From the NCBI RefSeq assembly GCF_902498785.1, contig NZ_LR701494.1, forward strand, positions 372,001 through 436,000: a stretch of 64,000 nucleotides of DNA. Direction: 5' to 3'. The notes beneath the pieces were generated by a model that was not told the origin of the DNA, ran no database searches, and saw only the letters and a list, made by a program, of their open reading frames with translations. The DNA comes from Sphingomonas sp. EC-HK361. Its GTDB lineage: Bacteria; Pseudomonadota; Alphaproteobacteria; Sphingomonadales; Sphingomonadaceae. This document shows, piece after piece, positions 48,721 through 64,000 of the stretch. A program made the translations under genes and the position numbers. Positions within the stretch are counted from its first letter, which is position 1; every line of letters begins with the position of its first letter.

Positions 48721-48765
48721 TGGCGCGCCCGGAACGATTCGAACGTCCGACCCTCAGATTCGTAG
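48721..48765 (-). other. 3' fragment of tRNA-Arg(ACG): island attachment site (att)
   Basis: Read on the minus strand, this is the 3' 45 bases of tRNA-Arg with anticodon ACG: the anticodon loop CTACGAA, the 3' anticodon strand, variable loop, a T arm GGACG/CGTTC around TTCGAAT, the 3' acceptor strand CGGGCGC and CCA. The sequence beyond 48765 cannot form the matching 5' anticodon strand, D arm or GCGCCCG acceptor, so the gene is cut in the anticodon loop. This is what integration at a tRNA leaves at one end of an island; the integrase begins 160 bases away. Confidence 0.85.
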
Positions 48766-48827
48766 GGCGATAAAGCGCCTTCCAGCTACGTCCCAGAACG
48801 TCTCTTTCTGGTGCAGATACAACAACT

Positions 48828-48892
48828 TGTATGTTCCGGACGTTCCCTGTATGTTCTAGGGTATCGCGACCCATTTGTTACCTAAGGTAACA
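48828..48892. promoter_or_regulatory. Direct repeats and palindrome upstream of the integrase
   Basis: TGTATGTTC occurs at 48828-48836 and again at 48848-48856, exactly 20 bases apart (two helical turns). Next to them is a dyad with 8-base arms, TGTTACCT-A-AGGTAACA, at 48876-48892, which ends 33 bases before the integrase ATG. The repeats could be integrase arm sites or operators and the dyad an autoregulatory operator. Function is inferred from position. Confidence 0.5.
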
Positions 48893-48925
48893 GCATGGCG
48901 GCCGGAACGAACCAGGATCATAGCT

Positions 48926-62000: not shown

Positions 62001-62330
62001 GACTTGCTGGCGCGCGAAATAGAGGTCGGTCTTGTCGGTGAAGATCGCTGTGACCTGGCTGAAGCCGTTGCGCGAGATGGATCGCGTCGTCTCCAGGCCG
62101 GGAATGCCGGCGAGCGAAATTTCGACCGGATAGGTGACGAGTTTCTCGATCTCGACCGGTGAAAGCCGCGGATCGACGGTGTTGATCTGGACCTGTTTCG
62201 TAGTGATGTCGGGCACCGCGTCGATCGGCAGCTTGGTAAGCTGCCAGACACCGAGGCCGGCGATGACGAGGAAGAGCGCGAGCACCGTCCAGCGTGCGCG
62301 GACGGAAAGCGCCATGAGGTTCGCTATCAT
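59085..62330 (-). CDS. czcA: CzcA-type heavy-metal RND efflux permease
   Basis: 1081 residues, a full inner-membrane pump of the HME-RND class that exports divalent cations with CzcB and CzcC. [29 protein letters not shown] and [26 protein letters not shown] are porter domain blocks; [27 protein letters not shown] carries the DFGxxxDGA motif of the class with proton-relay acids. A second long periplasmic loop and helices to [14 protein letters not shown] complete it. Three bases separate it from czcB. Confidence 0.95.
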   Translation of the reverse strand: [1081 protein letters not shown]

Positions 62331-62333
62331 GGT

Positions 62334-63515
62334 CTATTCTTCCTCGCCCGCGCCCTTGCCGAGTTCGGCCTTGAGCAGGAATGCATTCTTGGTCGCGACC
62401 TGGCTGCCGTCCGGCAGACCCTTGAGGATCTCGACACGGCCGTTGCTGCGTTGGCCGATTGTGACCGTTTGCGCGCGGAAGCCTTTCGCGGTGCGGACGA
62501 ACACCACGTCGCGCCCTTCGAGCGATTGCACCGCGTCTTCCGGCACGACGATCGCGTTCGAGGTATCGCCGCGGCTAGGTAGCAGCCGCACCCTTACCGC
62601 GAGGCCTGGTTGAAGCGCGCCGGGAACATCGAGGACCGCCGTCGCCGAGCGGGTCTCGCTCGCCAGCCCCGGCGTGACCGCACGCACCCGCGCATCGATC
62701 GTGCGCCCATCGGCCAACTCGATGATGGCACGGTCGCCGGGCGAGAGCCGCTGCGCGTCCCCCGGTCCGACCGCTGCCTCGATCTGCACCTTCGAGGCAT
62801 CCGCGACGCGCATCAGCTCGGTTTCGGGCTGCACGAACGCGCCTAGGGTGGCGCTCTCGGCCGTGACGCGTCCCGAGATCGGGCTAGTCACGATCACGCC
62901 TCGACCATCTGCTGTTACACGGGCAGCACCCGCCGCCACGCTCGCGCGCCGCGCTTCCGCTGCGGCCGATGCCGCTTCGGCCTGCGCCTGTTCCAGCTCC
63001 ACTCGCGCCGACACCTTCTGGCGATAGAGGTAGCTTTCTCGCGCGAGCGCCTTCTGCGCCAGCGTCGACTTGGCCGCTGCTGCGGTGCGATCGGCCGCGA
63101 TCTGCGCCGCCTCGCGGCTTTCGACGATCGCCAACGTTTCGCCGGCGCGGACCGGATCGCCAAGCCGCTTCATCAGCCGCGTGACGGCACCGGCTGCGCG
63201 CGCGGTGACAATCGCCTCGCCCTGCGGTGAGGCGTTCACCGTCGCCTGCGCGACAATCTCTGCGCCAAGCCCGCCGGACCGGATCGTCTCGGTCGCGATT
63301 CCTGCCTGGTCGATCGCCTGCGCGGTCATCGTCAAGGTATCCGGGGCTTTTTCTTCCGGGGCAGCGGCGGTGCTGTTGCCGGTCGCGGCTTCAGTCGTGG
63401 CGGGCTGGTCGGCGCTGCACCGCGCGACGGCGAAGCCGCCGAGCGCGGCGACGAGGGCAATGGCGGCACCGCCGCCCAGCAGGCGCCGCTTCTGGTTAGC
63501 GTCCTGATCGATCAT
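62334..63515 (-). CDS. czcB: CzcB-type membrane fusion protein (efflux adaptor)
   Basis: 393 residues from ATG 63515. One N-terminal membrane segment (LLGGGAAIALVAALGGFAVA), then lipoyl-like and helical hairpin parts (VTARAAGAVTRLMKRLGDPVRAGETLAIVESREAAQIAADR, ALARESYLYRQKVSARVELEQAQAEAASAAAEARR, GVIVTSPISGRVTAESATLGAFVQPETELMRVAD) and beta-barrel domain. Links CzcA to the outer-membrane channel. ATGA overlap with czcC. Confidence 0.94.
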   Translation of the reverse strand: MIDQDANQKRRLLGGGAAIALVAALGGFAVARCSADQPATTEAATGNSTAAAPEEKAPDTLTMTAQAIDQAGIATETIRSGGLGAEIVAQATVNASPQGEAIVTARAAGAVTRLMKRLGDPVRAGETLAIVESREAAQIAADRTAAAAKSTLAQKALARESYLYRQKVSARVELEQAQAEAASAAAEARRASVAAGAARVTADGRGVIVTSPISGRVTAESATLGAFVQPETELMRVADASKVQIEAAVGPGDAQRLSPGDRAIIELADGRTIDARVRAVTPGLASETRSATAVLDVPGALQPGLAVRVRLLPSRGDTSNAIVVPEDAVQSLEGRDVVFVRTAKGFRAQTVTIGQRSNGRVEILKGLPDGSQVATKNAFLLKAELGKGAGEEE

Positions 63516-64000
63516 CGATTGTCTCCAGAAGAGGGGGCCGGCGTCGTGAGCCGGTCGAGCCGCGCCTGTGCGTCGTGATAAGCCGCGAGGGCATCGACGT
63601 AGGTCTGGCGGGTCTGTGACAGGGTGCGCTCGGCATCGAGGAGCGCGATCTGGTCGAACTTGCCCTGCGCCCATCCAATCCGCGCAATGCGGGCGGCTTC
63701 CTGCGCCGCGGCGAGACCGGGACCACCGGCCGCACGAGCAGTCGCGGCGGCATTCGCCACTTCCGTTTGTGCGCTGGCAATGGCCTGGCGGGTGTCGATC
63801 AGCGCGAGATTGCGCTGCGCGAGCGCCACCGTCTGTTCTGATCGCGACTGCGCCACGAACGCACTGCCGTTGTTAAATAGCGGGATCGGAATCGAGATGC
63901 CGACCACCGCGGCGGTGTCACCCGTTGCCTTTAACCGCCGGGCGAAGGTGCTGACGGTCAGGTCCGGCACGCGGAGCGACCGCGCGACGCGCACTTGTGC
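63512..64000 (-). CDS. czcC: CzcC-type outer-membrane channel (TolC family), 3' part
   Basis: 163 codons before the window ends; the N-terminus is missing. The visible C-terminal half has VVGISIPIPLFNNGSAFVAQSRSEQTVALAQRNLALIDTRQAIASAQTEVANA and IARIGWAQGKFDQIALLDAERTLSQTRQTYVDALAAYHDAQARLDRLT, the repeat helices of the TolC/CzcC outer membrane factor. First gene in transcription order of the czc operon, so its promoter is beyond 64000. Confidence 0.92.
   Translation of the reverse strand, partial: AQVRVARSLRVPDLTVSTFARRLKATGDTAAVVGISIPIPLFNNGSAFVAQSRSEQTVALAQRNLALIDTRQAIASAQTEVANAAATARAAGGPGLAAAQEAARIARIGWAQGKFDQIALLDAERTLSQTRQTYVDALAAYHDAQARLDRLTTPAPSSGDNR

Follow-up and report, generated by a model that had tools for sequence, protein, structure and literature searches.

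A tRNA-Arg(ACG) remnant beside an integrase gene in Sphingomonas sp. EC-HK361: the probable left end of an integrative and conjugative type of element with metal-resistance cargo

The tRNA-Arg(ACG) remnant and the adjacent integrase

The window considered here, i.e. the whole analysed stretch of 64,000 nucleotides from Sphingomonas sp. EC-HK361 (contig NZ_LR701494.1, positions 372,001 to 436,000), passes near position 48721 from chromosomal ast genes to a 45-base piece of tRNA-Arg(ACG). A palindrome, an intact integrase gene and, further to the right, ars and czc clusters follow, and all of these were directly observed. The features around the junction, whose interpretation as the left end of an inserted element is the subject of this text, are the following.

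46120..48386, + strand: astA-like and astB-like (N-succinylarginine dihydrolase) genes, chromosomal left flank (NCBIfam TIGR03243 and NF009789, above cut-off)
48407..48667, + strand: small conserved chromosomal gene in the gap that separates astB from the tRNA (matched by tblastn in 69 of 80 astB loci)
48678..48713, - strand: terminator-like hairpin just beyond the tRNA 3′ end (consensus scan of the region, 2 found against 0.7 expected)
48721..48765, - strand: displaced 45-nucleotide 3′ fragment of tRNA-Arg(ACG), probable left junction of the element (comparison with the intact genes of relatives)
48766..48876, no strand: left end of the putative element from core to palindrome, 111 bp (alignable with seven relatives that carry the same integrase)
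48877..48891, no strand: palindrome GTTACCTAAGGTAAC, putative arm-type or operator site (pattern found upstream of the integrase gene in related loci)
48926..50161, + strand: tyrosine integrase of 411 amino acids, intact (Pfam PF13356 and PF00589; close relatives 88–96% identical)

A first-pass annotation, made from the sequence alone, had described a 45-base remnant of tRNA-Arg(ACG), cut in the anticodon loop and devoid of its 5′ half, and the comparison with relatives bore this out. The minus strand at 48721–48765 is identical to the 3′ 45 bases of their intact genes at 45 of 45 positions, the second-best site in the window reaches 25 of 45, and the 45-mer is present there in a single copy. 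The 5′ half (32 bases) was not found in the window, where its best match was 22 of 32. The match of the fragment extends, by inspection, through the anticodon loop (CTACGAA), which is kept, to its 5′ edge. ARAGORN reported no tRNA-Arg in the window, its sole tRNA being a tRNA-Glu at 18701, and Rfam with a loose threshold did not list the 45-nucleotide fragment, as may be expected for such a short piece.

The integrase, said to be intact and to lie 160 bases from the remnant, was likewise recovered as such. Its longest open reading frame (ORF) opens at 48875; the start that fits the relatives, and hence the probable one, is the ATG at 48926, 160 bases from the fragment. Both expected domains of a P4-like enzyme are present in the resulting protein, Arm-DNA-bind_3 at the N-terminus and the catalytic Phage_integrase domain, and inspection revealed QRRGEV, HDLRRT, NHI and YQRYDY, which we take to be the catalytic motifs. 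Solved structures compared by sequence with the integrase gave no match. We presume that the appropriate name for its type is that of P4-like tyrosine integrases with AlpA-type excisionases, which it resembles in its two domains and in the occurrence of an AlpA-family gene (in Pfam, prophage CP4-57 regulatory protein) in the same element of relatives. No sigma-70-like promoter was found when the left end was scanned for one.

As far as one end can show, the junction also conforms to the way tRNA islands are recognised by Islander, which, in the accessible part of its description, looks for a tDNA and its 3′ fragment in equal orientation flanking an element with an integrase inside (PMC4383910). 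A 3′ tDNA fragment without 5′ half and an integrase inside the element, 160 bp away, were both found, and crossover centred on the anticodon is one of the subsites tabulated there over 2083 islands; the case at hand shows nothing different in kind, only one end being inside the window.

The GC content is 0.60 in the bins from 48 to 52 kb, and leftward most 2-kb bins have 0.65–0.70, with dips of 0.61 and 0.64 at 22–26 kb. The first of these dips (22001–24000, 0.61 against a background of about 0.67) lies outside the island.

Both ends and the unoccupied site in relatives

Integrases 91–96% identical to that of the window were found in six genomes (G086, G474, G445, G548, G575 and G565; G, C and L numbers are our handles for genomes, contigs and loci), and S. 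ginsenosidimutans (G001) carries at a contig end a 130-amino-acid piece that is 88% identical. In all seven, alignment with the window placed the same fragment at equal distance from the integrase, and in six of them the far end could be identified as an intact tRNA-Arg(ACG) preceded by a common right-end sequence. Both copies of the 45-mer, exactly two per genome, lie on one contig and in equal orientation in G086, G445 and G565, separated by 110, 197 and 135 kb, respectively; in G575, G474 and G001 the fragment and the intact tRNA end are on different contigs. The predicted integration at tRNA-Arg(ACG), in which the 45 bases recur and the tRNA is restored at the far junction, is thus borne out in six of the seven closest relatives, and the two ends are oriented as predicted in all three single-contig cases. 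Moreover, an AlpA-like gene precedes the intact tRNA in each of the six tRNA-Arg far ends, one of which was tested by profile (PF05930).

The intervals delimited in this way also contain transfer genes. TraC, a TrwC-type relaxase and a TraD/VirD4-like protein were recognised by sequence between the ends of all three single-contig relatives, the nearest of them lying about 42 (G086), 105 (G445) and 66 kb (G565) from the fragment. The interval in G086 additionally encodes TraG, TraH, TraN, TraU and a TrbI-like protein, its coupling protein being TraD/TrwB-like, and in G575 the contig of the right end also carries TraC and TrwC, 46 and 128 kb from that end towards the interior, respectively.

The site as it would have been before integration was sought with astB as query; of the 573 loci confirmed in GTDB genomes the best 80 were taken, with a top identity of 82%, which makes the host Sphingomonas-like. 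An intact tRNA-Arg(ACG) was present in 17 of these 80 astB stretches, and in seven of them (L002, L007, L008, L011, L016, L021 and L076) it lies 325–406 bp from astB, that is, within 500 bp, in the order astB, small gene, tRNA-Arg, as expected of the empty site for which the first-pass annotation had proposed to look in related genomes. Two further loci (L032 and L044) contain the fragment alone, cut at the identical base, and the remaining 61 have neither the intact tRNA-Arg(ACG) nor the fragment within the fetched stretch. Of the seven genomes in which the site is unoccupied, five contain a second 45-mer, which in each belongs to a second intact tRNA-Arg gene and not to a fragment. Since a genome may thus hold two intact copies of tRNA-Arg(ACG), the far junction is recognisable only by the right end of the element beside the tRNA.

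We consider it about 87% probable that position 48721 is the integrase-side junction of an element of the integrative and conjugative type (ICE), inserted in the anticodon loop of the chromosomal tRNA-Arg(ACG) beside astB. The element would have been inserted there by its own tyrosine integrase, bringing its own copy of the tRNA 3′ part, which would complete the tRNA at the far (right) end, beyond position 64000, and displacing the original 3′ part to the integrase side. Judging by the relatives, the far end in the source genome would be composed of an alpA-like gene, whose product is likely an excisionase, a GTTACCTA-N4-GTTACCTA tandem and the intact tRNA-Arg(ACG). The core would correspond to the anticodon arm, and the arms to the palindrome on the integrase side and to the tandem pair on the far side. 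Because of the geometry of both ends in the relatives, excision, which would precede any transfer, is predicted to join alpA, the tandem sites, the 45-bp core, the palindrome and int in a row and on one strand in the tRNA-Arg family. Integration would separate alpA from int, possibly with a regulatory effect. In this family alpA is located at the end opposite int and would be adjacent to it only in the circular form, which would differ from the usual layout of P4-like systems.

Other occupants and arrangements of this tRNA were also observed. S. adhaesiva (G002) harbors a different island at the same site and with the same cut, whose integrase is 23% identical, also lies on the fragment side, and whose two copies are 22 kb apart; neither TraC nor TrwC was matched in that genome. 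The occupant of G538 represents a third type at tRNA-Arg(ACG), with the same 45-base fragment (L173/L271; G538:C10:21255-21299), an unrelated-looking left end, and an intact tRNA-Arg on another contig (L270; G538:C32). Intact tRNA-Arg(ACG) genes are found in tandem, with starts about 130 and 109 bp apart, at L154/L159 (G575:C2:725898-726072) and L182 (G617:C1:84164-84317), respectively, and in G575 the right end of the ICE abuts the outer tRNA of the pair. Such duplicate genes may supply a spare target.

Layout and end motifs among related integrases

The arrangement was then followed in 46 integrase loci, 37–96% identical to that of the window (30 from a first search and 16 new ones from a second; of the 42 matches of the first, 12 had no locus, of which that on G001:C33 was covered through L044 and 11 are left out), many of which are close relatives of one another and so not independent. 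Fragments were sought by BLAST with 37 tRNA sequences, as an earlier text pattern had caught 9 of 30 loci, missing for example tRNA-Lys(CTT). A tRNA 3′ fragment is present upstream of int and on the opposite strand in 43 of the 46 loci, a full copy of that tRNA being there in none, and the fragments derive from six tRNA genes: Lys(CTT), Lys(TTT), Arg(ACG), Arg(CCT), Met(CAT) and Thr(TGT). The match starts at tRNA position 28–33, in the anticodon arm, in 42 of these 43; the exception is L137, where it extends at 89% to position 15. The loci without a fragment are L110, where an intact tRNA-Lys(TTT), the only copy of that pattern found in its genome, lies on the opposite side of the integrase, and L140 and L146, whose fetched flanks contain no tRNA piece. 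In L147, which has a tRNA-Lys fragment, a complete tRNA-Leu(CAA) is additionally present some 470 bp upstream of int. The remnant on the integrase side, which the first-pass annotation had held to be the less common arrangement, is, accordingly, the rule within this integrase group.

The far ends of elements at other tRNA genes were also traced. For the tRNA-Lys(TTT) elements of G323 and G091, a single contig runs from the fragment past TraC and TrwC to the intact tRNA, over about 106 and 112 kb, respectively; in G301 the fragment and the intact tRNA are on two contigs. In all three tRNA-Lys(TTT) far ends, inspection of the 1.1–1.5 kb ahead of the intact tRNA gave no AlpA-like ORF, and in G075 such an ORF lies directly behind int. 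Regarding unusual members of the group, G144 (L218; G144:C1, ~570.9-595.8 kb) contains two stacked tRNA-Lys(CTT) elements of about 16 and 9 kb, each with its own fragment and integrase, the integrases being 51% and 35% identical to that of the window. Very small elements occupy tRNA-Met in G115 (L250; G115:C6) and tRNA-Lys in G075 (L217; G075:C1), with 2.7 and 8.6 kb, respectively, between the end of the integrase and the tRNA, possibly minimal or satellite forms.

A second regularity concerns a pair of motifs at the two ends. Upstream of int, a 14–15-bp palindrome was found with a strict pattern in 39 of the 46 loci, against a mean of 0.045 loci and a maximum of one in 200 shuffles; the 80 astB stretches, which served as a background of 1.55 Mb, contain it twice, one occurrence being in L044's own element. 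The half-sites of this palindrome match a tandem repeat at the far end, where a pair with a 12-bp period precedes the intact tRNA in all nine Arg and Lys(TTT) far ends (9/9), with none in the same 1.55 Mb. The half-sites at both ends change together, as seen in G323 (GCTACCT) and G091 (GCTACCC), the variants in the group being GTTACCT, GCTACCT, GCTACCC, GTTACCC and a mixed GATACCT/GTTACCT.

The tandem pair was subsequently tested in seven further genomes with far ends previously unseen, of which 1.18 Mb was scanned. It was located 64–87 bp before an intact tRNA in five (G075, G201, G035, G115 and G609), and these five tRNAs carry the same 45–49-base repeat as the fragment on the integrase side. 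For example, the mixed palindrome of G201 (GATACC/GTTACC) is mirrored by a mixed tandem, and the tandem of G075 departs from its palindrome in one half-site. In G144, a tandem with a deviating second half-site, missed by the pattern search and seen by inspection, precedes the second fragment at the join of the stacked elements, and in G611 the far copy was not found within the 160 kb fetched. Two additional tandem matches elsewhere in the 1.18 Mb, one in G075 and one in G201, are unexplained. Over nine elements, with the tRNA-Arg family counted once and G144 and G611 left out, half-sites agree at 34 of 36 positions (the misses being one each in G075 and G609), compared with a permutation mean of 18.2 (P ~7e-5); this test ignores shared ancestry and was designed after the first elements had been seen, for which the P value is uncorrected.

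These observations incline us, somewhat beyond an even chance, to the view that the attachment site is polar and fixed. An integrase-side palindromic pair and a far-side tandem pair 12 bp apart would be read by one protein, most likely through the arm domain of the integrase, setting the insertion polarity so that the fragment adjoins int, and the half-sites would have drifted together while the core, at the anticodon loop, moved among no fewer than six tRNA genes. Binding of both motifs by the integrase arm domain is the simplest reading, and binding by AlpA is its rival. The tRNA-Lys(TTT) far ends in which the tandem but no AlpA-like ORF was found, together with the AlpA-like ORF behind int in G075, mildly favor the integrase over AlpA as the reader. 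Among the papers listed by searches of the openly licensed literature, outside of which most subscription journals fall, none was recognised as a description of this motif pair.

What began as a junction seen from one side has become a mobile-element family that is defined by its two ends and its unoccupied site and of which three examples are complete, and the source genome can be tested at little cost for the right-end sequence together with the tRNA. In the wider group, six tRNA targets are used by one integrase type with a prevailing layout and with matched motifs at both ends; that group offers a natural series on the change of target with insertion polarity kept, and the prevailing layout with co-varying end motifs over the six targets is the part worth following.

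Cargo, alternative readings and known systems

Right of the integrase, the following features were identified, mostly by profile matches.

50233..51854, no strand: sparse 1.6-kb stretch, unmatched in G445, where about 144 bp separate both flanking matches (comparison with G445)
51838..52662, - strand: arsH (TIGR02690)
52604..53260, - strand: ORF with a YnfA/UPF0060 domain at its end, longer than the real gene (PF02694, residues 113–217)
52924..54699, - strand: arsB, the listed ORF exceeding the gene, with the ArsB match from residue 164–166 (PF02040, TIGR00935)
54210..54982, - strand: arsC (54210–54713) and an arsR-like gene (54650–54982) (PF03960, TIGR00014, PF12840, PF01022)
55131..55538, + strand: C-terminal fragment of an RND (CzcA-like) pump (PF00873, positions 934–1016 of 1021 only)
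55599..56531, - strand: CDF-family (CzcD-like) cation efflux protein (PF01545, TIGR01297)
57127..57942, - strand: ZIP-like transporter, weak (PF02535, below curated cut-off)
59085..63994, - strand: CzcA (59085–62330; TIGR00914 above cut-off), CzcB-like protein (62334–63674; TIGR00999 below and TIGR01730 above cut-off) and CzcC-like outer-membrane component listed at 63512–63994 and reaching the window edge (PF02321)

The profile matches to ars and czc clusters substantiate the description of this region as accessory. The low gene density also attributed to it applies to about 50.2–51.8 kb and not to the rest of the right side, and, in place of the pseudogenes announced, a single clear gene fragment was noticed, the RND piece at 55131–55538. 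The cargo is shared unevenly with the relatives. The arsH gene and the arsB-arsC-arsR stretch follow the integrase of G445 in the same order and are 92–93% identical to the window, and G086 has the ars/czc order in common with 65–82% identity.

Several points weigh against the reading of the junction as one end of an ICE. The far junction is beyond the window, as are any transfer genes of the element, none of which was seen in the part examined, the 15 kb to the right of the junction. In G548 the far end was not found, its other tRNA match having three mismatches and a different flank, and neither TraC nor TrwC was matched. TrwC of G474 and both TraC and TrwC of G001 are on contigs not tied to the element, TraC being without a match in G474; the assemblies of these three genomes are split into contigs, and decay of the element is also possible. 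In G565, G575 and G474, no blastn match of >200 bp to the window was obtained beyond the integrase end in the first 15–40 kb, which indicates that the cargo is not a fixed part of the element.

Among the alternatives, a decayed or non-conjugative island, having the same integrase and attachment module and resistance cargo only, deserves most consideration, although we hold it to be unlikely. The 15 kb without transfer genes, the missing TraC and TrwC matches in G548 and the small members of the wider group in G115 and G075 would all agree with it. Against it stand TraC, the relaxase and the coupling protein between the ends in G086, G445 and G565, and, since the nearest of these genes are at least 42 kb from the fragment in the relatives, their absence from 15 kb is to be expected. 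A search for VirB4 (PF03135) gave no match in G086, G001 and G002, its positive control having matched in 1 of 14 genomes; a non-conjugative interpretation of this null result proved wrong for G086, which has an F-type TraC (PF11130). The designation of the locus as a metal-resistance genomic island is apt as a description and undersized, since the complete relatives look like ICEs, and what the window most likely captures is the integrase side of an F-type ICE, presumably capable of transfer, whose cargo can be exchanged.

A composite locus, in which several elements are stacked at one tRNA and the cargo belongs to another element than the integrase, appears considerably less probable still. 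The tandem elements at tRNA-Lys(CTT) in G144 provide a precedent, and in G086 conservation is lower for the ars/czc cargo (65–82%) than for the integrase (92%). On the other side, the window has a single copy of the 45-mer, G086, G445 and G565 have exactly two, and in G445 similarity to the window is about the same (92%) for the integrase and for the ars genes. Finally, the reading of the tRNA fragment as a fortuitous match or a relic of unrelated origin, with the integrase there by coincidence, was refuted by the comparison with relatives and has next to no probability left: nothing was found in its favor, the match is 45/45 against a second-best 25/45, the same fragment, distance and integrase recur in seven other genomes, and a tRNA fragment adjoins 43 of the 46 related integrases.

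Among known systems, the ICEs of Erythrobacter inserted at tRNA-Val-CAC are the closest case, in so far as the accessible part of their description goes. At tRNA-Val-CAC, the tRNA is without exception located at the ICE end, and in the other two clades the integrase comes just after the tRNA (PMC4919336). The cargo of clade III, which we take as the tRNA-Val clade, consists mainly of heavy-metal resistance, including arsenicals (PMC4919336). The element discussed here resembles them in its host, which belongs to a related genus, and in the metal/arsenical cargo, its relatives also in TraC and the tRNA at the end; it differs in its target, tRNA-Arg(ACG) instead of tRNA-Val-CAC, the likeness being one of description. 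An intact tRNA opposite the integrase is seen in the relatives of the window, which itself shows the remnant side only, and the ICE section of that paper mentions no pair of end motifs (PMC4919336). ICEs of this layout with metal cargo are already known from Erythrobacter (PMC4919336), and the tRNA-Arg element adds a member. Similarly, the genome of Sphingopyxis granuli TFA, as partly seen in its report, has genomic islands taken as putative ICEs, one of them with heavy-metal pumps and conjugal transfer genes, with neither an attachment site nor an integrase layout given there (PMC4741004); the likeness, by description, lies in the host group, in the metal pumps of that one island and, for the relatives of the window, in its transfer genes.

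Two further observations concern the contents of these elements. The element of G086 (L126-L128; G086:C5, ~520-568 kb) encodes a Strawberry-notch-type helicase of 1403 amino acids, a ParB-like protein and a cassette of imuA, a Y-family polymerase and an error-prone DNA polymerase, resembling those of sphingomonad plasmids. In the window, the gene-poor stretch between integrase and arsH, without counterpart in G445, contains at 50968–51063 an inverted repeat of 27 bp, 96% complementary, with its arms 42 bp apart.

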